A stretch of 64,000 bases of DNA from Amycolatopsis alkalitolerans (GTDB lineage: Bacteria > Actinomycetota > Actinomycetes > Mycobacteriales > Pseudonocardiaceae), in the NCBI RefSeq assembly GCF_006152065.1, contig NZ_VDFW01000018.1, forward strand, positions 62,001-126,000. Direction: 5' to 3'. The notes below the pieces were generated by a model. That model made no database searches, had not been told where the DNA came from, and worked only from the letters and a program-made list of their open reading frames with translations. Below are positions 1 to 12,262 of the stretch, piece after piece. Numbering within the stretch: position 1 is the stretch's first letter; each line of letters starts with the position of its first letter. The position numbers were made by a program, and so were the translations under genes.

Positions 1-2292
1 CGTTCTGGTCTTGTCGCCGGATGCCATGGGGCCGATCCGCCGGTTCGCCTGCAGGAGCTCGACGCGGACCATGTCGGCCACCAGCTCCGAGTCGGCTGCC
101 GCCGGCTCGTCCGCGGTGTGCTCCAGCCACAGCAGGAACGCGTGCACGTTGAGCGCCACCTCCCGCCCGGTCACGGAGCTGGTCAGGCGCGCTCGACCGG
201 TCGTGAGGTCGACGTTTTCCCGCCAGCCCGGGGGCACCCGCACACGCAGATCGGTCCCCGCGGCTAGGGGGACGGCGTGTTTTCGGCGATCGGCGAGGAA
301 ACCGAACGTCCAAAGCGTGCAGAGTACGTCCACAATCGTGTTGTCCGAGTTGTCGAACTGCCATCCCGTGTCCAGTTCGGACACGAGCCGTACCCATCGC
401 CGCGGCAACCGGAGGATGCTGTCGGCTCCAGCGGCGTAGAGCCCCACCCCACCGTCCGCCGACACGCGCCAGGTCACGCCCTCGGCCAGCCGTAGCGAGG
501 TTCCGCGAACAGGGGCGAACGCCGCCGGGTGCGCGGTCGGACGTCCGGGCGGAACCCCGGTGCGGTGGACGCAACGCAGGAACGCGTACTCCTCGGACTC
601 GCCGACGAGACCGCGGTGTTGCAGAGGCGCCGAGCGGCCGGTGTCGGGCAGGGCGTCGGCCGCGGCGGCGAGCCGCGCGGCCTCGGCGCCGGCCAAACCG
701 GCATCTGTGAGGTAGTCCACACTCAGCGCAAGGTCTTCGTGCGGGCCGGGGTGGAGCACGGTCAGCCCGTACTGCTCCGGGTGCAGGCCGACCGGGGAGA
801 GCAAGTCGAGGATGAACGGGCCGTTCACGCTCGTCGAATACGGCAAGGCGAATTCCTCCGTCGAGCGGCGCAGCACCCGTTCCACGAATTCGGGTGTGCG
901 GCGGGCCTCTTCCTCCGTTTCGCCGGGAAAACCGGTGATGCAGAACAGGTGCACGGGAACACCCGCGCCCAGCAACGCCTCGATGTTCGCCTCGACGTGC
1001 TCGACCTTCGTGCCTTTGCGCATCAGGTCGAGCACTCGCTGGTTGTAGGACTCCAGGCCCAGGTCCAGCCGACGGCAACCGGACGCGTGCAGCTGCGCGG
1101 CAAGCTTGTCGTCCAGCCCCGCGGAGAACCGGGTCTCGCCGTACCAGTGCAAGCCGGCGTCCCGGCGCACCAGCTCGGCGCTGACTTCGCGCAGGGTCCG
1201 CTGGGTCATGATCTCGTCGACGAACATGAACGACGTCGTACTGTGCCGCTGCGCCAAGTACAGCATCTCCTCGGCGACGGTGGCGGCGTCCCGATGGCGG
1301 TAGCGATTGCTGGCGAACGGGATGGAGCAGAACGCACAGTCCCAGGCGCAGCTGCGGGAGGCGAGCACGGGCAAGACCGGCCCGGGAGCGAGGTAGGAGC
1401 CGAGATCGTAGTCGTCGAAGTCGGGGGCGGGCAGGGTGGCGAGGGAGACGTCGCGGGCCGGGGCGAAGCTCAGTTGTCCGTCAGGGGCCAGGGTGCTTCG
1501 GCCGGGGACGGGACGGGTACTGCCTTCGAAGAGGTTTTCGCACAGGGCGACGATCGCGTCCTCGCCTTCGTACAGCACGAAGTCGTCGACGAGGTCGAAG
1601 AACGGATGCCGGGTACGCCACCGGCCGGCTACCCGGGTGATGTAGTTGCCACCCATCACGATCCGCAGGTCCGGCCGGTGCTCGCGAACCAAAGCGGCCA
1701 CGGTCATCGCCGGGATCAGCTGGGTGTCGGCGGAAACGGAGATACCGACCAAGCCCAGGCTCGGGTCGGCTAGCCGCGGTGGGAGCAGTTCCTCGAATGC
1801 CCACCGGTAGGGGTTGCGATCGGGGTCTCCGCTTGCGGTCAGCACCGACGCGCTGGATCGCTCACTGTAGTACTGGCGATTGGATCGCAGGTCGCAGTGG
1901 AAGCCCGCGAACGCGGCGGAATGGCACACCAGCGCGTTGCCGATGGTACGGGTCGCGGCTGCGAAAGCGGCGTGATCGTGCAGGCTCGCGGTGTCGTGGA
2001 CGGTGACCCACGCGTCTTCGATCCCGTCGCGCACCGAGGGTAGAAGCAGCCGGGCCTCGTCCACTGCCTCGGGGTCAAGGCCCAGGTCGTCGGCGCGATC
2101 GTAGCGGTCGGCGAGACCGGCCACCGTCTTCGCCGAAAGCATCCATCGCAAGTGGGTGGCGCTCAGGTCGAAGGCGGTGACCGGCCACCCGCGGTCGCGC
2201 AGCACGGTGGTCAACAGCGGCACCGCCAGGTGCGGCGCGTAGACGTTCCACAACGGTGGGTTCACCAGCAGCGTGCGTGGGCGACGTGCCAT
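1..2292 (-). CDS. B12-binding-type radical SAM enzyme, 3' end beyond window
   Basis: The frame is open for 764 codons from ATG at 2292 to the left edge, so the C-terminus is missing. The N-terminus (TLLVNPPLWNVYAPHLAVPLL) has the look of a cobalamin-binding Rossmann domain. A radical-SAM [4Fe-4S] motif, SCAWDCAFCS, gives Cys315, Cys319 and Cys322 in CxxxCxxC spacing and is followed by a typical radical SAM barrel (FMFVDEIMT, GCRRLDLGLES, ITGFPGET). A GCGGAGG ribosome site lies about 6 nt before the ATG. The gene is last of four same-strand genes after a PqqD-like carrier and a small peptide. B12-radical SAM enzymes commonly methylate unactivated carbons or rearrange peptides, so the likely job is modifying the peptide encoded at 2370-2525. 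Family assignment is firm; substrate is inference. Confidence 0.85.
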   Translation of the reverse strand, partial: MARRPRTLLVNPPLWNVYAPHLAVPLLTTVLRDRGWPVTAFDLSATHLRWMLSAKTVAGLADRYDRADDLGLDPEAVDEARLLLPSVRDGIEDAWVTVHDTASLHDHAAFAAATRTIGNALVCHSAAFAGFHCDLRSNRQYYSERSSASVLTASGDPDRNPYRWAFEELLPPRLADPSLGLVGISVSADTQLIPAMTVAALVREHRPDLRIVMGGNYITRVAGRWRTRHPFFDLVDDFVLYEGEDAIVALCENLFEGSTRPVPGRSTLAPDGQLSFAPARDVSLATLPAPDFDDYDLGSYLAPGPVLPVLASRSCAWDCAFCSIPFASNRYRHRDAATVAEEMLYLAQRHSTTSFMFVDEIMTQRTLREVSAELVRRDAGLHWYGETRFSAGLDDKLAAQLHASGCRRLDLGLESYNQRVLDLMRKGTKVEHVEANIEALLGAGVPVHLFCITGFPGETEEEARRTPEFVERVLRRSTEEFALPYSTSVNGPFILDLLSPVGLHPEQYGLTVLHPGPHEDLALSVDYLTDAGLAGAEAARLAAAADALPDTGRSAPLQHRGLVGESEEYAFLRCVHRTGVPPGRPTAHPAAFAPVRGTSLRLAEGVTWRVSADGGVGLYAAGADSILRLPRRWVRLVSELDTGWQFDNSDNTIVDVLCTLWTFGFLADRRKHAVPLAAGTDLRVRVPPGWRENVDLTTGRARLTSSVTGREVALNVHAFLLWLEHTADEPAAADSELVADMVRVELLQANRRIGPMASGDKTRT

Positions 2293-2369: not shown

Positions 2370-2525
2370 TCAGGACTCGTCCTCCAGCGCGGACATGTCC
2401 TTGGGCTCAGGGAACAACGCGTACTTGGAGGTCCGGACCTGGGGGTCCAGGGTGGATACCTCGGGACGCTCGTTGTCCTCGGCTGCGATCGCCTTGAGCT
2501 TTTCGATGTCGATACGGTTGCGCAT
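2370..2525 (-). CDS. Candidate RiPP precursor peptide, 51 aa
   Basis: A 51-residue, strongly charged peptide starting MRNRIDIEKLKAIAAEDNER. Its ATG overlaps the TAA stop of the PqqD-like gene (TAATG), so translation is coupled. The N-terminal half (IDIEKLKAIAAE) can form the amphipathic helix expected of a leader that docks to a PqqD-type recognition domain. The C-terminal half (KYALFPEPKDMSALEDES) is a plausible core with aromatic, Pro, Met and acidic residues and no Cys. It sits between the carrier and the B12-radical SAM gene, the usual place for a precursor. I do not recognise the peptide family, and the leader/core split is inference. It could also be a small structural protein. Confidence 0.7.
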   Translation of the reverse strand: MRNRIDIEKLKAIAAEDNERPEVSTLDPQVRTSKYALFPEPKDMSALEDES

Positions 2526-2857
2526 TAGTTCTTCACCTCCTCCCCGGCCGGAAGCATTCCGGCGGCGTTGCTCGTGTGGACAAGGCCCTTCCGCTCCAGG
2601 TCTTCGAGACAGTCCTTGGTGGAGGTGAGGACGTCGTCGCGATCGGGCATGATCTCGGCGATCGTCGCGGAAATCTCCTCGAGGCTCCGGTCTTCGCAGA
2701 GTTCGAGCACAAGCCATGAGTACGAGTTGAGCCAGTGGAGCGCGGGCTTGTCCGGGGTGTAGGCCATGACCGCATGCCACGGCTCGAACGGACGCAGCCG
2801 CAGTCGCGCGTTCTGCACATACACCGTCCGGTCCAGTGGTTCGACGGGCACGGTCAC
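2525..2857 (-). CDS. PqqD-like peptide carrier (RRE domain protein)
   Basis: A 110-residue protein from GTG at 2857, which overlaps the TGA of the upstream radical SAM gene (GTGA). The C-terminal 70 residues read as a PqqD fold: HWLNSYSWLVLELCEDRSLEEI, then a helix with TIAEIMPDRDDVLT and the closing DLERKGLVHTS. PqqD-type domains bind the leader of a ribosomal peptide and present it to a radical SAM enzyme. The N-terminal 40 residues (VQNARLRLRPFEPWHAV) are an additional beta-rich segment typical of stand-alone actinobacterial PqqD proteins. Tight coupling on both sides puts it in one operon with the SPASM protein and the precursor candidate. Confidence 0.85.
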   Translation of the reverse strand: MTVPVEPLDRTVYVQNARLRLRPFEPWHAVMAYTPDKPALHWLNSYSWLVLELCEDRSLEEISATIAEIMPDRDDVLTSTKDCLEDLERKGLVHTSNAAGMLPAGEEVKN

Positions 2858-3897
2858 ACTCCCGTCATGGTCTGCGGGGCGCCGAACGGGAGGTCGACGA
2901 TCCGGTCCGGCAGCCGGGTCAGGTCGGTGCCGTTGTTCATGTGCGTGCAGTACGGGTCCGGTGCGTCCCAGGCGCCCCCGAAGGCGTAGGAGGTGGATCG
3001 GCAGCCGCCGGAGCGGTTGCGGTCGTTGGCCGCGCATTCCGGGCAGGCGTCGGCTGCGCTGGCAGCGCGGACCTTCTTGTATGCCGGGTTGCGCCAAGTG
3101 TCCATAAAGGACACATCGCGGATGTTGCCGTAGTTGGCGAAGTCGCGCAGGTAGGGGCAACCGATGCTGTTCCCATAGGCGTCGACGGCGGCCATCTGCC
3201 AGCAGCAGTTGGGATCGTTGGGGTGCCAGGACTGCATGAGCTGCACGCCCGCCGGCACGGAGATCGCTTCGAGCGCGGCCATCTGACGGGGCAGCGGCAC
3301 GGATAGCTTCGTCCAGTTCTTGCGCGCCAGTCCGAGCGGGTAGAGGCGCAGCACACCGAGCTTCTCGGCGCCGGTCTCGGCCGTCAGGTCGGCCAGCATC
3401 TGCAGCTGGTCGACGTTGTAGCTGGTCAGGATGGTGGTGATGAACGTCGAGATCCCGGCCTCGACCAGATGCCGGACTCCCGCCACGGCGCGGTCGAAGG
3501 CGCCAGGCAAGCCGACGAGAGCGTCGTGTGTGGCGGCATCGCCGCCCTCGATGTCCACGCACACAACGCCGACGCTGGCCGCCTTGAGCGCGCGAGCCAC
3601 TTCGGCGGTCACCAGCGTGCCGTTGGTGCGGATCATCGTGAAGGCGTTGGGGGTGGCGTACTCGACCATGTCGAGGAAGTCCTCGCGCAGGAAGGGCTCA
3701 CCGCCCTCGAAGAACACGCTGATGACGTTCTGGCCGAACATCTCTTGCATGGAGCGGGTGATCTCGTCGAACGTCAGCTCGACCCCGGTCGGATCGCACA
3801 CGTCGTACGCCATTTCGCTGTCGAGGTTGGTGCGCTTGGTGGGCTGCACCCAGAAGCTAAATGGCGCGGGCATTTGAATTACCACAACAACCCCCAT
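2854..3897 (-). CDS. Radical-SAM/SPASM protein with degenerate cluster motif
   Basis: A 347-residue protein with the architecture of a SPASM-type peptide maturase. At the cluster site it reads KRTNLDSEMAYD, so the three expected cysteines are Thr23, Ser27 and Ala30. The SAM-contacting EGGEP (residues 64-68) is kept, and the C-terminal SPASM region is intact with about ten cysteines (NCCWQMA, GCPYLRDF, CPECAAND, GGCRSTSY, PDPYC). It therefore cannot bind the canonical radical-SAM [4Fe-4S] cluster but may bind auxiliary clusters. It is first in the operon and overlaps the PqqD-like gene by 4 nt. The start could instead be ATG at 3873 (MPAPFSFW); neither has a clear ribosome site. Possible roles are a pseudoenzyme scaffold or a partner of the B12 enzyme. 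Confidence 0.85.
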   Translation of the reverse strand: MGVVVVIQMPAPFSFWVQPTKRTNLDSEMAYDVCDPTGVELTFDEITRSMQEMFGQNVISVFFEGGEPFLREDFLDMVEYATPNAFTMIRTNGTLVTAEVARALKAASVGVVCVDIEGGDAATHDALVGLPGAFDRAVAGVRHLVEAGISTFITTILTSYNVDQLQMLADLTAETGAEKLGVLRLYPLGLARKNWTKLSVPLPRQMAALEAISVPAGVQLMQSWHPNDPNCCWQMAAVDAYGNSIGCPYLRDFANYGNIRDVSFMDTWRNPAYKKVRAASAADACPECAANDRNRSGGCRSTSYAFGGAWDAPDPYCTHMNNGTDLTRLPDRIVDLPFGAPQTMTGV

Positions 3898-4061: not shown

Positions 4062-4616
4062 ATGGTGTCACTGAACGTGATGTTGTCGGGCAGTCAACAG
4101 GTTCGTCCGCTGGAGTCCGACGACGGGCCCGCGTTGCAGGATCTGCTGGAAAGGTGCGACGACTACTCCCGCTTGAGCTTCGGAATTCCCACGGGTTCGG
4201 CGGATGCGCAGAGTCAATTCCTGGAAGGGCTACAGTACGTTCCTGAGGAGTGCAAGCACCTGTTGGGGTGTTATTCCGGCGATCGAATGGTTGCTGCCGT
4301 GGACCTGCTGGAGCAGTACCCGGAACACGGGACCGCCGTTCTGGGAATGGTGGTCGTGGAACCCGAGTCGCGCGGTCGAGGGCTTGGCACCGGCATTCTG
4401 CTCGGGCTGAGTGCGGAGCTGGCTGGGCGGGGCATCGGGCGGCTGCGGGTCGACTGCCACGTCGCCGAGAACACCGAGGCGGTGAGGTGGCTGGAACGTC
4501 TGGGTTTCGAAGAGTTGTCCCGCGCCGAGATCACCGTCGCCGCGGGGCAGACCCGCACCAGGGTGCTGTGGATGGCCGAACTTCCCTTGCGCATCAAGGA
4601 GGACACGGGCTCGTGA
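4062..4616 (+). CDS. GNAT-family N-acetyltransferase
   Basis: A 184-residue single-domain acetyltransferase. The acetyl-CoA pyrophosphate-binding loop reads PESRGRGLGTGIL, preceded by the core strand TAVLGMVVVE and followed by a motif-B-like NTEAVRWLERLGF. The AGGGGG ribosome site at 4055-4060 is too close to ATG 4062 and better spaced for GTG 4065, which would shorten the protein by one residue. It diverges from the radical SAM operon and overlaps the following methyltransferase, which suggests it tailors the same product or confers self-resistance; that is inference. Confidence 0.85.
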   Translation: MVSLNVMLSGSQQVRPLESDDGPALQDLLERCDDYSRLSFGIPTGSADAQSQFLEGLQYVPEECKHLLGCYSGDRMVAAVDLLEQYPEHGTAVLGMVVVEPESRGRGLGTGILLGLSAELAGRGIGRLRVDCHVAENTEAVRWLERLGFEELSRAEITVAAGQTRTRVLWMAELPLRIKEDTGS

Positions 4617-6227: not shown

Positions 6228-6872
6228 TCATCGGGCACCACCTGTTTCGGCGCGCGGACGTCCGTGGGTGTCTCGGGTGGGGATGCCGCGTTCGCGCAGC
6301 TTGTTCAGGACGGTGGTGTGGTTGACGCCCAGGTGGTCGCCGACTCGTGCCAGGGACCAGCCGAGGTTGTAGAGGTGGATGGCATCGTCGACCTGGTCCG
6401 GGGAGAGGCCACGGCGGCGCATCGGCACGCCGTGCCGGTGGAGGATGCTGCTGACCGTTCGCCGTTCGATGCCGAACCGGTCACCGAGTTCGTACACCGT
6501 CGCGCCGGACCGGTACTCGGCGATCAGCTGCTCGACTTGATCGGCGCCAAGTTGCCGGGCCCGGTCGGGTCGGTCCCGCTTGATCGACGGCGGCTCGGGT
6601 GCATCGAGGCTGGGAAGCTTCTCACGGAGCTCTTCCAGGGCTTTGACCTGGTCTTTCGGGTTGTAATAAGCTCCCCCAAGGTCCACCAGAAGGGTACACA
6701 GGAAGACCCTAGATGACCTGTGACCTGCGAAGATGAACGGTTTCGGGTCTTCCTGTGAAGACGCTCGAGTTTTGCGCTCATGCGAACACTGTCGTCTCTT
6801 CGCGTCGTCATCGCGGCGGTTTTCCACAGCCGGATTTCGAAGTGCCTCGACACCTGTCGCCCGGGGCTGCAC
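6228..6872 (-). CDS. Resolvase-type helix-turn-helix protein
   Basis: A frame of 214 codons whose C-terminal 120 residues hold two tandem resolvase/Hin-like helix-turn-helix units: [20 protein letters not shown] with [20 protein letters not shown], and [20 protein letters not shown] with [18 protein letters not shown]. The segment [19 protein letters not shown] before them resembles the linker after a serine-recombinase catalytic domain, but no catalytic domain is present. The first 65 residues look non-coding, so the true start may be internal or this may be the stump of a larger recombinase. Neighbouring transfer-gene decay supports a mobile-element origin. Confidence 0.55.
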
Positions 6873-7660: not shown

Positions 7661-7959
7661 GGTGGTTGGCTCCTTCGGCGGGTTGATGTTGGCGTCGTGG
7701 CTGGTGCGACGGAACGTATGAGCACGGCGCGACGTCTCTAGGCGCTCGGCTGGCTGCCAGCAACCCCGATGCTCATACTGCTGGTCCATTCGAGTGGTAG
7801 TCGCGGGTCTCGGATCGGCCGGCTCCTCGGTTTCGTACCGTGGTGGTGCCGCTACGCGGAGGGTTGGTATCGGCAGCCAAGGTGGCCTGAAGTTGATCCT
7901 GCAGGGGTGGGCTTCGCGCACTGGTGCGGCTTGCACTGTCACCGAGCGGATGGAGCGTT

Positions 7960-8280
7960 ATGGACGGGCCTGGGTTTCGTGTCGATGTTGACAAGGTCGA
8001 CGAGGCCGCTACTGGTATCCGCCAGAGTGTCGATGACCAGCACAATTTCGAGCTGCGCGGGCTGTGCGGTGACAGCGAGCTGTACGGGCACGCCGGGGTG
8101 CACGACGCCCTGATGAACTGCTGCGTCCGGTGGAGCGACGGCCTCGACACGCTCACCAACGACGCTGGAGCGATCGCGGATGCCCTGGCGCGTGCGATCC
8201 GCGCCTACCGGGCCATCGACGGCGCGACGGCCCGCACCCTGAAGACCGACTCCGGTACGGGAGCGGTCGGCGGTGGCTGA
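7960..8280 (+). CDS. EspC-like type VII secretion-associated protein
   Basis: A small helical protein of 106 residues; ATG 7960 follows GGAG at 7952-7955. It has the two-helix layout of ESX/EspC proteins: a first helix VDKVDEAATGIRQSVDD, a central W-D-G turn (VRWSDGLDTL) and a C-terminal helix ending in ARAIRAYRAIDGATA, where YRAID resembles the YxxxD/E secretion signal. Its stop overlaps the start of the following toxin gene by 8 nt, so the pair is a secretion-partner/toxin operon. Proteins of this type usually dock to the N-terminal domain of the co-encoded toxin. Confidence 0.7.
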   Translation: MDGPGFRVDVDKVDEAATGIRQSVDDQHNFELRGLCGDSELYGHAGVHDALMNCCVRWSDGLDTLTNDAGAIADALARAIRAYRAIDGATARTLKTDSGTGAVGGG

Positions 8281-9429
8281 ACTCGGCCAAACCCAAGATC
8301 CCACCGAGCTGGTGAAGGGCAAGCCGGACGCGATCGAGGAGAACGTGCGGGTGCTGCACGCCCGTGCGGATCGGGCGGGCCGTGCCGCTGAGGGACTCAA
8401 GGCCATCGATACCGGCGCCTGGCAGGGACCGGCGGCTCGGGCGTTCCATGACAAGTTTTCGTATGAGCCGGGCAAATGGTATGACGCAGCGGATTCGCTG
8501 CTGTCGGCCGCCGATGCCTTGGATTACTACGCGAGTACCCTGCGCTGGGCCCAGGCCCAAGCGGTCGAGGCGACCTCGCCCAGTGGAACCAGGGCCAGGC
8601 TGCAACCCAACAAGCCCAAGCCCAGCACGACTAGGCCACGGCGCAGGCGGCGGCCAATAATCAGCCTGCGCCCCGGTTCACCGATCCCGGCACCGCAACC
8701 CGCCAAGCGGCCCAGGACACCCTCAACCGGGCGCGCGGTCAGCTGGCTGAAGTCGGTGACGCCGTTGCTGCGGCGATCCAGGACGCCACCAGTGGGGCGC
8801 CGAAGCAGTCGAGTTGGCTCGATGAGGCGGGCAACTTCCTCGCCGACGCGGGCGCTCACCTGGTGAACGGGTTGGCGTCGTTCGGCAACGCGATGGTCAA
8901 CCACCCTGGGTAGCTGGCGACCACGGCGATGGGGTTTCTCGGCATGGCCGCCGGGGCGGGCGGCGAAGTCGTAGGCACCGTGCTCGACGCCACCGGTGTT
9001 GGTATCGCGCCGGGGGTTGCGCTCCAAGCGGGCTCGGCCACCCTCATCGCCGGTGGCGCCACGGCGGCGGCGGCCGGAGCGACGCAGCTCGCCATGCATG
9101 CCATGGGCGACGATCACGTGTCGCCGATGCAGACCAACAGCACCAGCGGCGGGGGCGGCGAGACCGAACCGCCGTTCCCACCACCCAAAGAAATCACCGG
9201 CCAGACTGAGCATGGGGCGCAGCAAATGGCTGAGCGGGACGGGCACGGGGTCAGCGACGCCGCAGCAAAAGACGCCGTGGACAACCCGGTCAAGCCACCG
9301 AAGTACCGGCCCGACCAGTATGGCGGCGCCTACCGCTTCACGGGAAAGGACGCCGTGGTAAACCTCAACCAAGAAGGAAAAGTCGTCACCGCATGGGCAC
9401 GATCCAAAGCGGGTTGGAGGCAGGAGTGA
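8273..9429 (+). pseudogene. Type VII-secreted polymorphic toxin, disrupted
   Basis: The N-terminal frame (8273 to about 8565) encodes a helical secretion domain with GAWQGPAARAFHDKF and DYYASTLRWAQAQAVEA. The match then moves to the +1 frame (LAQWNQGQAATQQAQAQHD). That frame is interrupted by TAG at 8632-8634 and again by TAG at 8911-8913, and continues to 9429. The C-terminus carries a hydrophobic Gly/Ala linker (FLGMAAGAGGEVVGTV) and a small toxin domain with EHGAQQMAERDGHGVSD and VVNLNQEGKVVTAWAR, resembling BECR/DUF4258-type RNase toxins. One frameshift and two amber stops mean no full-length toxin. Only the toxin tail from ATG 8929 could be made. Confidence 0.75.
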
Positions 9430-9695
9430 GCACCGTGATCGAGAGCCTCCCTGCGGAGTACCGGGACGTGGTCACGGCCCTGCTCGCGGAACGGGACCCT
9501 GAGCTCCTGTCCGCGCTGCAGGTGCAGGAGAGGCCCACCCTGGACCAGCAGGACGAGGTGATTGAGGTCCTCGCCGACGCCTTCACCGAGCACCTCGGGC
9601 CAGGCCAGGAGCCCACAGAACAGGGCGTGCTCATCGACAATGCGCTCGGTGCCTTCCTGACGCGATGGCCAACCGAAGCCCTAAGTGACGATTGA
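9426..9695 (+). CDS. Probable immunity protein for the adjacent toxin
   Basis: An acidic 89-residue protein; GTG 9426 overlaps the toxin stop (GTGA). The sequence (SLPAEYRDVVTALLAERDPE, LDQQDEVIEVLADAFTEHLG) is compact, helical and cysteine-free, as many immunity proteins are. No family recognised; the call rests on position, size and coupling. It stays intact although the toxin is broken, as expected if immunity protects against sibling cells or against the surviving C-terminal toxin fragment. Confidence 0.6.
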   Translation: MSTVIESLPAEYRDVVTALLAERDPELLSALQVQERPTLDQQDEVIEVLADAFTEHLGPGQEPTEQGVLIDNALGAFLTRWPTEALSDD

Positions 9696-10137: not shown

Positions 10138-11922
10138 TTAAGTTCCGCTGAGGGCGAGGATTCCGGCGAAGGCCGCGGTTCCGAACGCCAGCCAGGCGGC
10201 GTAGTCGCCGATGTGACCGGAATGCAATCGATGCAGGCCGGCCAGCGTCGTGCGCGACCACCCAGGGACTCGCCGGGTGTGCAGGGCCGCCAACGCGATG
10301 AGCACGGCGAGCGCGGTCGTGAGCAGACCCAGCAAGACACCGGTTCCGGTCCATGTCGTTTCAGGCGCGGCGGGCGCGGGCGGGGTTGGTTGCGCGAGTG
10401 CGTCCGCGGTATAGGCGTGCTGGTTCACGAACGCGGCGGCGGCAGGTCCGATTCCGGGGACGAATCCGATGACCAGCCCGCCTGCGAACAACAATGCGAT
10501 GGCCACGGTCATGGTTGTCGGTGTCGAGGGAGGAGGCTGGGTGTCGGGTTCCTCGTCGCGGCCGGTGGTCAGCTCCGATGCGGGCTCGTCGGAGGGTGGG
10601 GGGCCCACCCCGAAGTAGACCCGCAACGCGACCCGGAACGCCGCGGCGCCGGTCAGTGCGGACACGACGAGCGTCAGCCCGGTGAGTGCGGGCGAATCAC
10701 CGGCCTCGTCCATCAACGCCTTGCCCAGCGCTGTGCCGAAGGGTGGCAGGCCGGCCAGCGCGAGCGCACCGACGGCGAACGCGAACCCGGCCACCTTGTG
10801 GTCGCGGGCTCGTCCGTAGAGTTCGAGTTCATCTACGCTGCGGTAGCGGCTGAGCAAGAGCCCCGTCAGCAGGAACAGCGCACCTTTCACCGCCGCATGG
10901 GCGGCAACGGCGACGCCCACACCCGCGATCCCCAGTGGGCTCAGCGCGGCGATGCCAACCAGGAACAGGCCGATGTGGGCGATCGTCGAATACGCCAGCA
11001 GCCGCTTGATGTGCCGTTGGGTGAAGCACATCAGGCCACCCAACGTGGCGGTGACGATGCCGAATACGAGGAAGGTGCGGTGCACGGCCGTGTCCGGGAG
11101 CACGCCGCGGAAGACCACCCAGTACAGGCGGGCCAGCCCGTAACACCCCAACGGCGCCATGACGCCCGAGAACAGCACGCATACCGGGGCCGGTGCGACC
11201 GCGTGCGCGTCGGCCAGCCAGAAATGGAACGGTACGGCGGCGGCCTTGACCAGCCAGCCAGTGCCGATCAGCACGAACGCCATGAGCACCAGCGGATCGC
11301 TGCCCCGGGCGGACAAGGCGAAGGCCAGCTGTGGCAGACCGAGCTGGCCCGTGCGGGCATACAGCAGGCCGATTCCGGTCAGGCAGAGGTAGGCACCGAG
11401 CGAGTTGACGACGCCGAACGTCAGTCCACCTTGGACAGACTCTGGATCCTCGATCTTGAACCCCGCCAGCGCGTAGGCCGCCGCGCCCATCAGTTCGAAG
11501 AACACGAACATGTCGAACAGGTCGCCGGTCAGCGCGAAGCCGGCCATACCGGCGGCGAACAGCAGCATGAGCGCGTGGTAATGGCCGTGGGCGGTGTCGA
11601 AGTAGCGCCATCCGAACAGCAGCGCGACGGTGGTCAGCGCGAAGATGAGCACGGCGATGCCGCTGCCGCCGCGGTCGGCGACCAGCACGATGCCGACGGT
11701 CAGGTTCGGCCGGGGCTGCCAGCCGCCGGCCCAGGTGACGACCCGGCCGCCCGAGGTGGCGTGCAGCAGCAACGCCGAGACCGCGAGCCCACCGGCGGCC
11801 ACGGCCACGGCGGTGCCGTCGGTGACCCAGCGTGGGCACCTCGCACCCAGTGCGAGCAGCACGCACGCGCCGGCGACCGGCACGACCAGGCATAACGGGA
11901 GCAGCGCGGTGGGATCAGCCAC
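10138..11922 (-). CDS. mnhD: Mrp/Mnh cation antiporter subunit D
   Basis: A 594-residue polytopic protein of the NuoL/M/N antiporter superfamily with about 14 hydrophobic segments. Diagnostic stretches are DLFDMFVFFELMGAAAYALA (conserved Glu in the TM5 region), GTGWLVKAAAVPFHFWLADA with HAVAPAPVCVLFSG (conserved Lys and His), and RHIKRLLAYSTIAHIG. A cytoplasmic Glu/Asp/Thr/Pro-rich insert (PPPSDEPASELTTG to about residue 470) interrupts the C-terminal helices. It is the last gene of the minus-strand operon E-F-G-MbhD-B-C-D and overlaps mnhC by 8 nt. It should translocate H+ in a Na+/H+ or related antiporter in the cytoplasmic membrane. Confidence 0.9.
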   Translation of the reverse strand: MADPTALLPLCLVVPVAGACVLLALGARCPRWVTDGTAVAVAAGGLAVSALLLHATSGGRVVTWAGGWQPRPNLTVGIVLVADRGGSGIAVLIFALTTVALLFGWRYFDTAHGHYHALMLLFAAGMAGFALTGDLFDMFVFFELMGAAAYALAGFKIEDPESVQGGLTFGVVNSLGAYLCLTGIGLLYARTGQLGLPQLAFALSARGSDPLVLMAFVLIGTGWLVKAAAVPFHFWLADAHAVAPAPVCVLFSGVMAPLGCYGLARLYWVVFRGVLPDTAVHRTFLVFGIVTATLGGLMCFTQRHIKRLLAYSTIAHIGLFLVGIAALSPLGIAGVGVAVAAHAAVKGALFLLTGLLLSRYRSVDELELYGRARDHKVAGFAFAVGALALAGLPPFGTALGKALMDEAGDSPALTGLTLVVSALTGAAAFRVALRVYFGVGPPPSDEPASELTTGRDEEPDTQPPPSTPTTMTVAIALLFAGGLVIGFVPGIGPAAAAFVNQHAYTADALAQPTPPAPAAPETTWTGTGVLLGLLTTALAVLIALAALHTRRVPGWSRTTLAGLHRLHSGHIGDYAAWLAFGTAAFAGILALSGT

Positions 11923-12262
11923 GGAGCGCCCGCAGTTCGTCGGGCACGATCGTGCCGTGCCGCTTCGCCACCTGGATCACGAGTGCGAGCAACAACGCGG
12001 TCACCGTCGCGGAGACGACGATGTCGGTCAGCGTCATCGCCTGCACCACGGGGTCGACGACGGGTGTGCCCGCAGCGGTGCTCGGTCCGAAGATCGGCGC
12101 GACCGCGCCACGCTGGTAGCCGACCGTCAGCAACACGACGTAGGTGCCCGACTGCGCGACCGAGACGCAGACGACGGTGTGGATCAGGTTACCGCTGCGG
12201 ACCACGCCGAACACACCGGCCAGCACCAACCAGATTCCGGTCCCGTAGGCGAAGGTGCTCAT
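11915..12262 (-). CDS. mnhC: Mrp/Mnh antiporter subunit C (NuoK-like)
   Basis: A 115-residue, three-helix protein. The signature DPVVQAMTLTDIVVSATVTA is the hallmark of MnhC/MrpC, with NuoK-like helices before it (SGNLIHTVVCVSVAQSGTYV). It overlaps mnhB upstream by 4 nt and mnhD downstream by 8 nt, giving tight translational coupling. It forms part of the membrane arm shared with complex I. Confidence 0.9.
   Translation of the reverse strand: MSTFAYGTGIWLVLAGVFGVVRSGNLIHTVVCVSVAQSGTYVVLLTVGYQRGAVAPIFGPSTAAGTPVVDPVVQAMTLTDIVVSATVTALLLALVIQVAKRHGTIVPDELRALRG

Follow-up and report, generated by a model that had tools for sequence, protein, structure and literature searches.

A selected radical SAM/SPASM pseudoenzyme without cluster cysteines in a small actinobacterial clade, possibly a peptide-presenting scaffold

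The stretch of DNA analysed here, 64,000 nucleotides of a contig of Amycolatopsis alkalitolerans (the window), carries close to its start a gene for a radical SAM/SPASM protein in which all three cysteines of the CxxxCxxC motif are replaced. The same loss is found in three other genomes, the four proteins form one branch within a family of active enzymes, and it is well supported that the gene encodes a selected pseudoenzyme and is not decaying. On the basis of sequence and gene context, we suggest that a former SPASM maturase lost its cluster once and may have been kept, together with a PqqD-type chaperone, as a non-catalytic scaffold that presents a peptide; we give this reading roughly even odds (probability about 0.5). 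The features of the window on which the argument is built are:

1..2292, minus strand: B12-type radical SAM enzyme with intact CxxxCxxC (CAWDCAFC), from the sequence
2370..2525, minus strand: putative precursor peptide, 51 aa, motif QVRTSKYALFPEPKD, conserved in L005, L006 and L007
2525..2857, minus strand: PqqD-like peptide chaperone, GTG start, Pfam PqqD 26.3 bits against 23.4
2854..3897, minus strand: pseudo-radical SAM/SPASM protein, 347 aa, open frame with Radical_SAM and SPASM Pfam matches
2947..3207, minus strand: its SPASM region with seven kept cysteines, C231-C317, from the alignment
3694..3705, minus strand: its retained GGEP motif, residues 65-68, invariant in 22/22 rows of alignment A1
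3808..3831, minus strand: its former cluster-binding loop, T23-N-L-D-S27-E-M-A30 in place of CxxxCxxC, from translation and alignment
4062..4616, plus strand: divergent GNAT acetyltransferase, Pfam Acetyltransf_1 44.2 bits
4613..5497, plus strand: divergent methyltransferase-like gene, named by eye, whose GTG start overlaps the GNAT stop

The 24 bases at 3808-3831 on the minus strand are codons 23-30 of the open frame 2854-3897 and read TNLDSEMA. At the former cysteine sites 23, 27 and 30 the codons are ACC, AGC and GCG, which are separated from three cysteine codons by at least six base changes in total; since so many changes would be needed and the same loss occurs in three other genomes, a read error does not account for it. 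The first-pass annotation had described the replacement of the cluster cysteines by Thr23, Ser27 and Ala30, a retained GGEP and an intact frame coupled to its operon. All of this is confirmed: the 347-codon frame is open, and stop and start overlap at both junctions, from pseudoenzyme to PqqD (GTGA) and from PqqD to peptide (TAATG). The protein passes the profiles of the radical SAM barrel (PF04055; 56.5 bits, gathering threshold 29.5) and of the SPASM domain (PF13186; 32.6 bits, threshold 21.5), and CxxxCxxC is absent from it (T23, S27, A30) as from every clade member (0/4). The Radical_SAM match starts at profile position 24, that of the active relative L009 at position 3.

A PqqD-like gene and a conserved small peptide gene lie together in the operon, as in a RiPP cassette with a PqqD-type chaperone; the 51-aa peptide has no match in Pfam or NCBIfam. 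The frame of the B12-type radical SAM enzyme extends about 20 nt past the start of the window, and its B12-binding Pfam match is below gathering (22.1 against 32.1). Just past the window start are a cupin gene (contig about 60745-61925) and an MFS gene (contig about 59580-60750). The assignment of the cupin to Cupin_8 is borderline, with 22.3 bits in the window genome, under Pfam's 27.4, and 28.0, just over it, for the orthologue in L007; H-C-D and the distal His are kept in the cupins of all four pseudoenzyme loci. In the cassette of the metagenome-assembled genome (MAG) described below (L061, G392:C92), pseudoenzyme, PqqD, peptide, cupin, MFS, GNAT and methyltransferase are all on one strand.

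A scan of some 85,000 species genomes for exact matches to 8-residue patterns taken from the window protein gave 23 loci with relatives; since this first search relied on exact patterns, distant family members may be missing. Three of the loci share the loss of the cluster cysteines: Streptomyces NRRL S-31 (L005; 89% identity to the window protein, loop TNLDSIMA), Streptomyces SID486 (L006; 86%, TNLDSIMA) and an Actinomycetes MAG (L007; 64%, SNLPRSLLA, with one extra residue). Thus, homologues do not uniformly keep CxxxCxxC. It is kept in nineteen loci, L009-L027; in the remaining one, L008, the contig starts past the site. A further five active actinobacterial relatives came from genome searches (L046/L059, L047/L060, L053/L056, L054/L057 and L055/L058). 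In these wider searches (E 1e-40, only the top candidates per genome scored) 390 genomes of the family gave the window genome's own gene and two active loci, and 392 Streptomyces genomes gave one pseudoenzyme locus, which is L005 itself, and three active loci; a phylum sample of 396 genomes and 298 genomes of the order of the MAG gave no locus beyond the window genome's own and the MAG's own, respectively. The gene was found in 0/18 other genomes of the genus, whose matches are SPASM/radical SAM proteins less closely related to it (best E 6.3e-29). As a control, CxxxCxxC is kept in 21/21 other SPASM/radical SAM matches examined within the genus, three of them from the window's own genome.

For residue counts 29 rows were aligned, of which 4 pseudoenzymes and 23 active proteins were counted; L008, which begins after the loop, and L027, whose end is unalignable though its loop is intact, were left out. 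The three cluster cysteines are found in 23/23 full-length relatives outside the clade and in 0/4 clade members. A fourth cysteine, the C of YxxC, is present in all 23 active rows and aligned in none of the four pseudoenzyme rows, where the alignment has a gap and the nearest residues are C, H, H and S. C231, C232, C247, C285, C288, C299 and C317 of the SPASM region are kept in 4/4 pseudoenzymes; among active rows C232, C247, C285, C288 and C299 are found in 23/23 each, C231 in 18/23 and C317 in 10/23. The canonical SPASM cysteine pattern includes CX2CX5CX3C, and one cysteine of it is absent from the SPASM region of the whole family, active members included. The earlier statement that all SPASM cysteines are retained is right relative to the family. 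The former cluster loop is constrained as well, S27, A30, Y31, D32 and V33 being identical in 4/4 pseudoenzymes. GGEP, R90-T91, D115, R184 and Y186-P187, which probably line the SAM pocket, are invariant across all 22 rows of A1, in active proteins and pseudoenzymes alike; outside A1, L060 has GGDP and L008 has GGKP.

The four pseudoenzymes form a single branch (support 100/100) nested inside the active family, and do so again (100/100) when the loop columns are removed. The clade nearest to them comprises the active actinobacterial L056-L059, with support of only 86/68 or 94/89; one tree omitted L027 only and came with a long-branch warning (L060 and outgroup), the other omitted L008 and L027. 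By a simple Nei-Gojobori count, dN/dS of the pseudoenzyme is 0.131 and 0.122 between the window and the two Streptomyces and 0.101 between S-31 and SID486, and 0.131 in the active pair L056-L057. In each of the pairs among window, S-31 and SID486, the pseudoenzyme value is below those of PqqD (0.175-0.255) and of the B12 enzyme (0.192-0.285). For the SPASM region the values are 0.073 (window and S-31), 0.044 (S-31 and SID486) and 0.123 (active pair); between window and MAG, with dS >1, they are 0.269 for the gene and 0.267 for the SPASM region. Four open frames on one branch, dN/dS of 0.10-0.13 among the close three and seven SPASM cysteines kept in 4/4 argue for a selected pseudoenzyme, as had been supposed from the window alone, and against decay or read error.

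A plasmid origin was considered and rejected: there is no close copy among plasmids, and the best match is 43% (Microvirga ossetica). This relative of the family lies on a plasmid of M. ossetica, at NZ_CP016618.1:192101-193081. Near the cassette, a helix-turn-helix-like frame, perhaps part of a recombinase, is seen by eye at 6228-6872 (minus strand). It is followed at 7924-9695 by frames that look by eye like WXG100-type proteins and then a polymorphic toxin C-terminus with a small possible immunity gene, and at 10138-12262 (minus strand) by frames that resemble, by eye, the MrpD and MrpC subunits of a multisubunit Na+/H+ antiporter.

Cassette gene content was compared by tblastn (cut-off 1e-4) between the 4 pseudoenzyme loci and 5 active actinobacterial loci. 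PqqD is present in all of them (4/4 and 5/5). The HExxH protein (query from L057) is absent from the pseudoenzyme loci (0/4) and present in the active ones (5/5; 30-100% identity to the query), whereas the cupin and the methyltransferase-like gene are each found in 4/4 pseudoenzyme and 0/5 active loci. The HExxH protein of L057 belongs to TIGR04267, aKG-HExxH peptide beta-hydroxylase (51.7 bits, cut-off 40), and those of the other four active loci are its sequence homologues. GNAT is found in 4/4 and 3/5 loci and the B12-radical SAM gene in 3/4 and 3/5; the contig of L059 ends after PqqD, and L060 has no B12-radical SAM gene at this cut-off. MFS is not a clean marker, since an MFS-like frame is visible in the active L060 despite no match to the query MFS. 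Judged by gene content, an oxygenase swap accompanies the cluster loss: HExxH is absent, and cupin and methyltransferase-like gene are present. The four pseudoenzyme loci are related and may all reflect a single evolutionary swap, so that the gene correlation effectively amounts to n = 1.

The peptide of the pseudoenzyme clade reads QVRT-SK-YAL-x-P in 4/4 loci. Of the 5 active actinobacterial loci, 4 yielded a peptide; in three of them it reads E[VI]R[ST]-x-x-Q-YAL-x-P, and in L060 it is more divergent (SLRTGSQVAFNP). The peptides of the two kinds of cassette are alignable, VRT..YAL.P being kept, with one residue less between VRT and YAL in the pseudoenzyme clade. In L008-L027, 20 loci with flanks of differing length, only the SPASM gene and PqqD (19/20) were found among the query genes. 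In the proteobacterial loci examined, PqqD is accompanied by a longer protein, about 170-240 aa, that bears a comparable [VI]R[ST] motif close to its N-terminus (L009:7293-7826, L012:7242-7970, L017:7270-7839), and there are like places in L008, L010, L015, L020-L023, L025 and L026. Three of these proteins were scanned and gave no Pfam or NCBIfam match; perhaps they are a family of protein-sized substrates.

The AlphaFold2 monomer model of the pseudoenzyme (pLDDT 88.7, pTM 0.90) is closest in fold to two SPASM enzymes that modify peptides, SkfB (Z 28.1) and SuiB with its peptide SuiA (Z 25.8), followed by PqqE (Z 23.6, within 1 of viperins and others); ChlB structures are also among the matches (Z 23.0 and 22.6). 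In the PqqE system, according to PMC10906245, PqqD docks on the SPASM domain and the PQQ peptide PqqA touches both the SPASM domain and the barrel of PqqE. We suggest that a SPASM-type peptide maturase lost its SAM-cleaving [4Fe-4S] site a single time, in the common ancestor of the small actinobacterial clade, and that selection kept the dead maturase as a non-catalytic subunit. Pseudoenzyme and PqqD would still bind the 51-aa peptide and would present it to the cupin oxygenase (4/4 loci) and to the B12-radical SAM enzyme (3/4). If HExxH acts after the radical SAM step, loss of the cluster would leave its gene useless, which fits its absence, and a cupin with the kept H-C-D...H set would supply another oxidation. 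The pathway would then have exchanged a radical SAM oxidation for one that depends on oxygen, with the old enzyme as a docking platform.

A peptide-presenting scaffold is favoured because binding of PqqD and peptide presumably needs no RS cluster, because HExxH is absent and because the cupin could oxidise instead. Against it speaks the conservation of residues that probably line the SAM pocket, as a pure scaffold could do without them. Of the roles put forward in the first-pass annotation, presentation of the peptide is our best guess, and the holding of auxiliary clusters is compatible with it. We are more tentative about a fuller version, a catalytic handover in which the cluster was lost as the cupin joined and HExxH left, and in which the protein would have become an obligatory docking subunit that delivers the peptide, with PqqD, to the cupin and, where present, to the B12-radical SAM enzyme.

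The third role put forward, obligate partnership with the B12-radical SAM enzyme, has lost ground. Conserved adjacency holds for PqqD (4/4) but not throughout for the B12-radical SAM gene (3/4): an orthologue was found neither on the contig nor elsewhere in the MAG, which may be incomplete (best 26%, E 1.7e-5). Since the MAG keeps the pseudoenzyme, an obligate partnership is unlikely as a general statement. The same genome bears on a related idea, that auxiliary clusters of the SPASM region pass electrons to the adjoining B12-radical SAM enzyme. Such a relay would fit the seven cysteines kept in 4/4, the intact CxxxCxxC of the B12 enzyme and the report in PMC10470005 that PapB, once prereduced, can turn on a radical SAM enzyme unrelated to it, an activation that persists, though 50-70% weaker, when PapB lacks its RS cluster. 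The MAG, however, keeps pseudoenzyme and cysteines with no B12 orthologue found, and we regard the relay as unlikely. An active SPASM paralogue nearby, as a dimer partner, was considered and rejected: nine loci have one SPASM match each, and among open stretches >150 aa within 18 kb of the window gene only the B12 enzyme has CxxxCxxC.

The invariant pocket residues, GGEP to Y186-P187 in the 22 rows of A1, could also point to a non-radical role in which the pocket would bind or sense SAM and gate the handover of the peptide. Much of this conservation may, however, be a constraint of the fold, L060, outside A1, reads GGDP, and radical SAM enzymes hold SAM largely by the cluster iron; such a role is improbable. 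An enzyme that is still active, with its cluster held by other ligands, would have a candidate in the nearby C34 of the window protein, but both Streptomyces have H at this position and the MAG has S, the MAG loop is one residue longer, and T/S, S and A are poor ligands, which makes it very improbable. A decaying gene or a sequencing artefact, for which no supporting evidence was found, can practically be dismissed in view of intact frames in four genomes, the low dN/dS among the close three and the PqqD, peptide, cupin, GNAT and methyltransferase kept in 4/4.

In other protein families, above all the kinases, pseudoenzymes kept by selection are well known. A pseudo-SAM/SPASM family is already named in NCBIfam, TIGR04347 (pseudo_SAM_Halo), whose cluster loss and haloarchaeal character are known here from the family name alone. 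By profile score the window protein differs from it: it matches with 122.1 bits, far under the cut-off of 525, and is not a member, and the active relative L009 scores nearly as high (114.7 bits). The window's own genome has no match to TIGR04347 at E 1e-30, and the accession of this family was not found in a literature search whose coverage is thin for subscription journals. Among the matches listed there, judged by title and start of abstract, was no paper on a radical SAM pseudoenzyme; with most subscription journals outside the coverage, this is weak evidence for novelty.

The PqqE/PqqD/PqqA system resembles the cassette in its SPASM protein, separate PqqD chaperone and small peptide. PqqE, however, keeps its RS cluster, which the window protein has lost, and the cassette has further tailoring enzymes. 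In the active sister cassettes a SPASM radical SAM enzyme occurs alongside HExxH, a pairing also seen in the fused radical SAM/aKG-HExxH maturases ChlB/ChlH, but here the genes are separate and in 3/5 active actinobacterial loci a B12-radical SAM enzyme is present in addition; the pseudoenzyme clade has neither an HExxH gene nor the RS cluster. Pbs is similar in its B12-radical SAM chemistry and biphenomycin (Bpm) in its JmjC and aKG-HExxH hydroxylase; both use an MNIO, and the accessible part of PMC12257519 describes no pseudo-SPASM protein for them.

Among the active cassettes the pseudoenzyme clade has a living sister whose peptide aligns with its own. The role of the cluster, and the role of the protein without it, can therefore be compared directly between the two.
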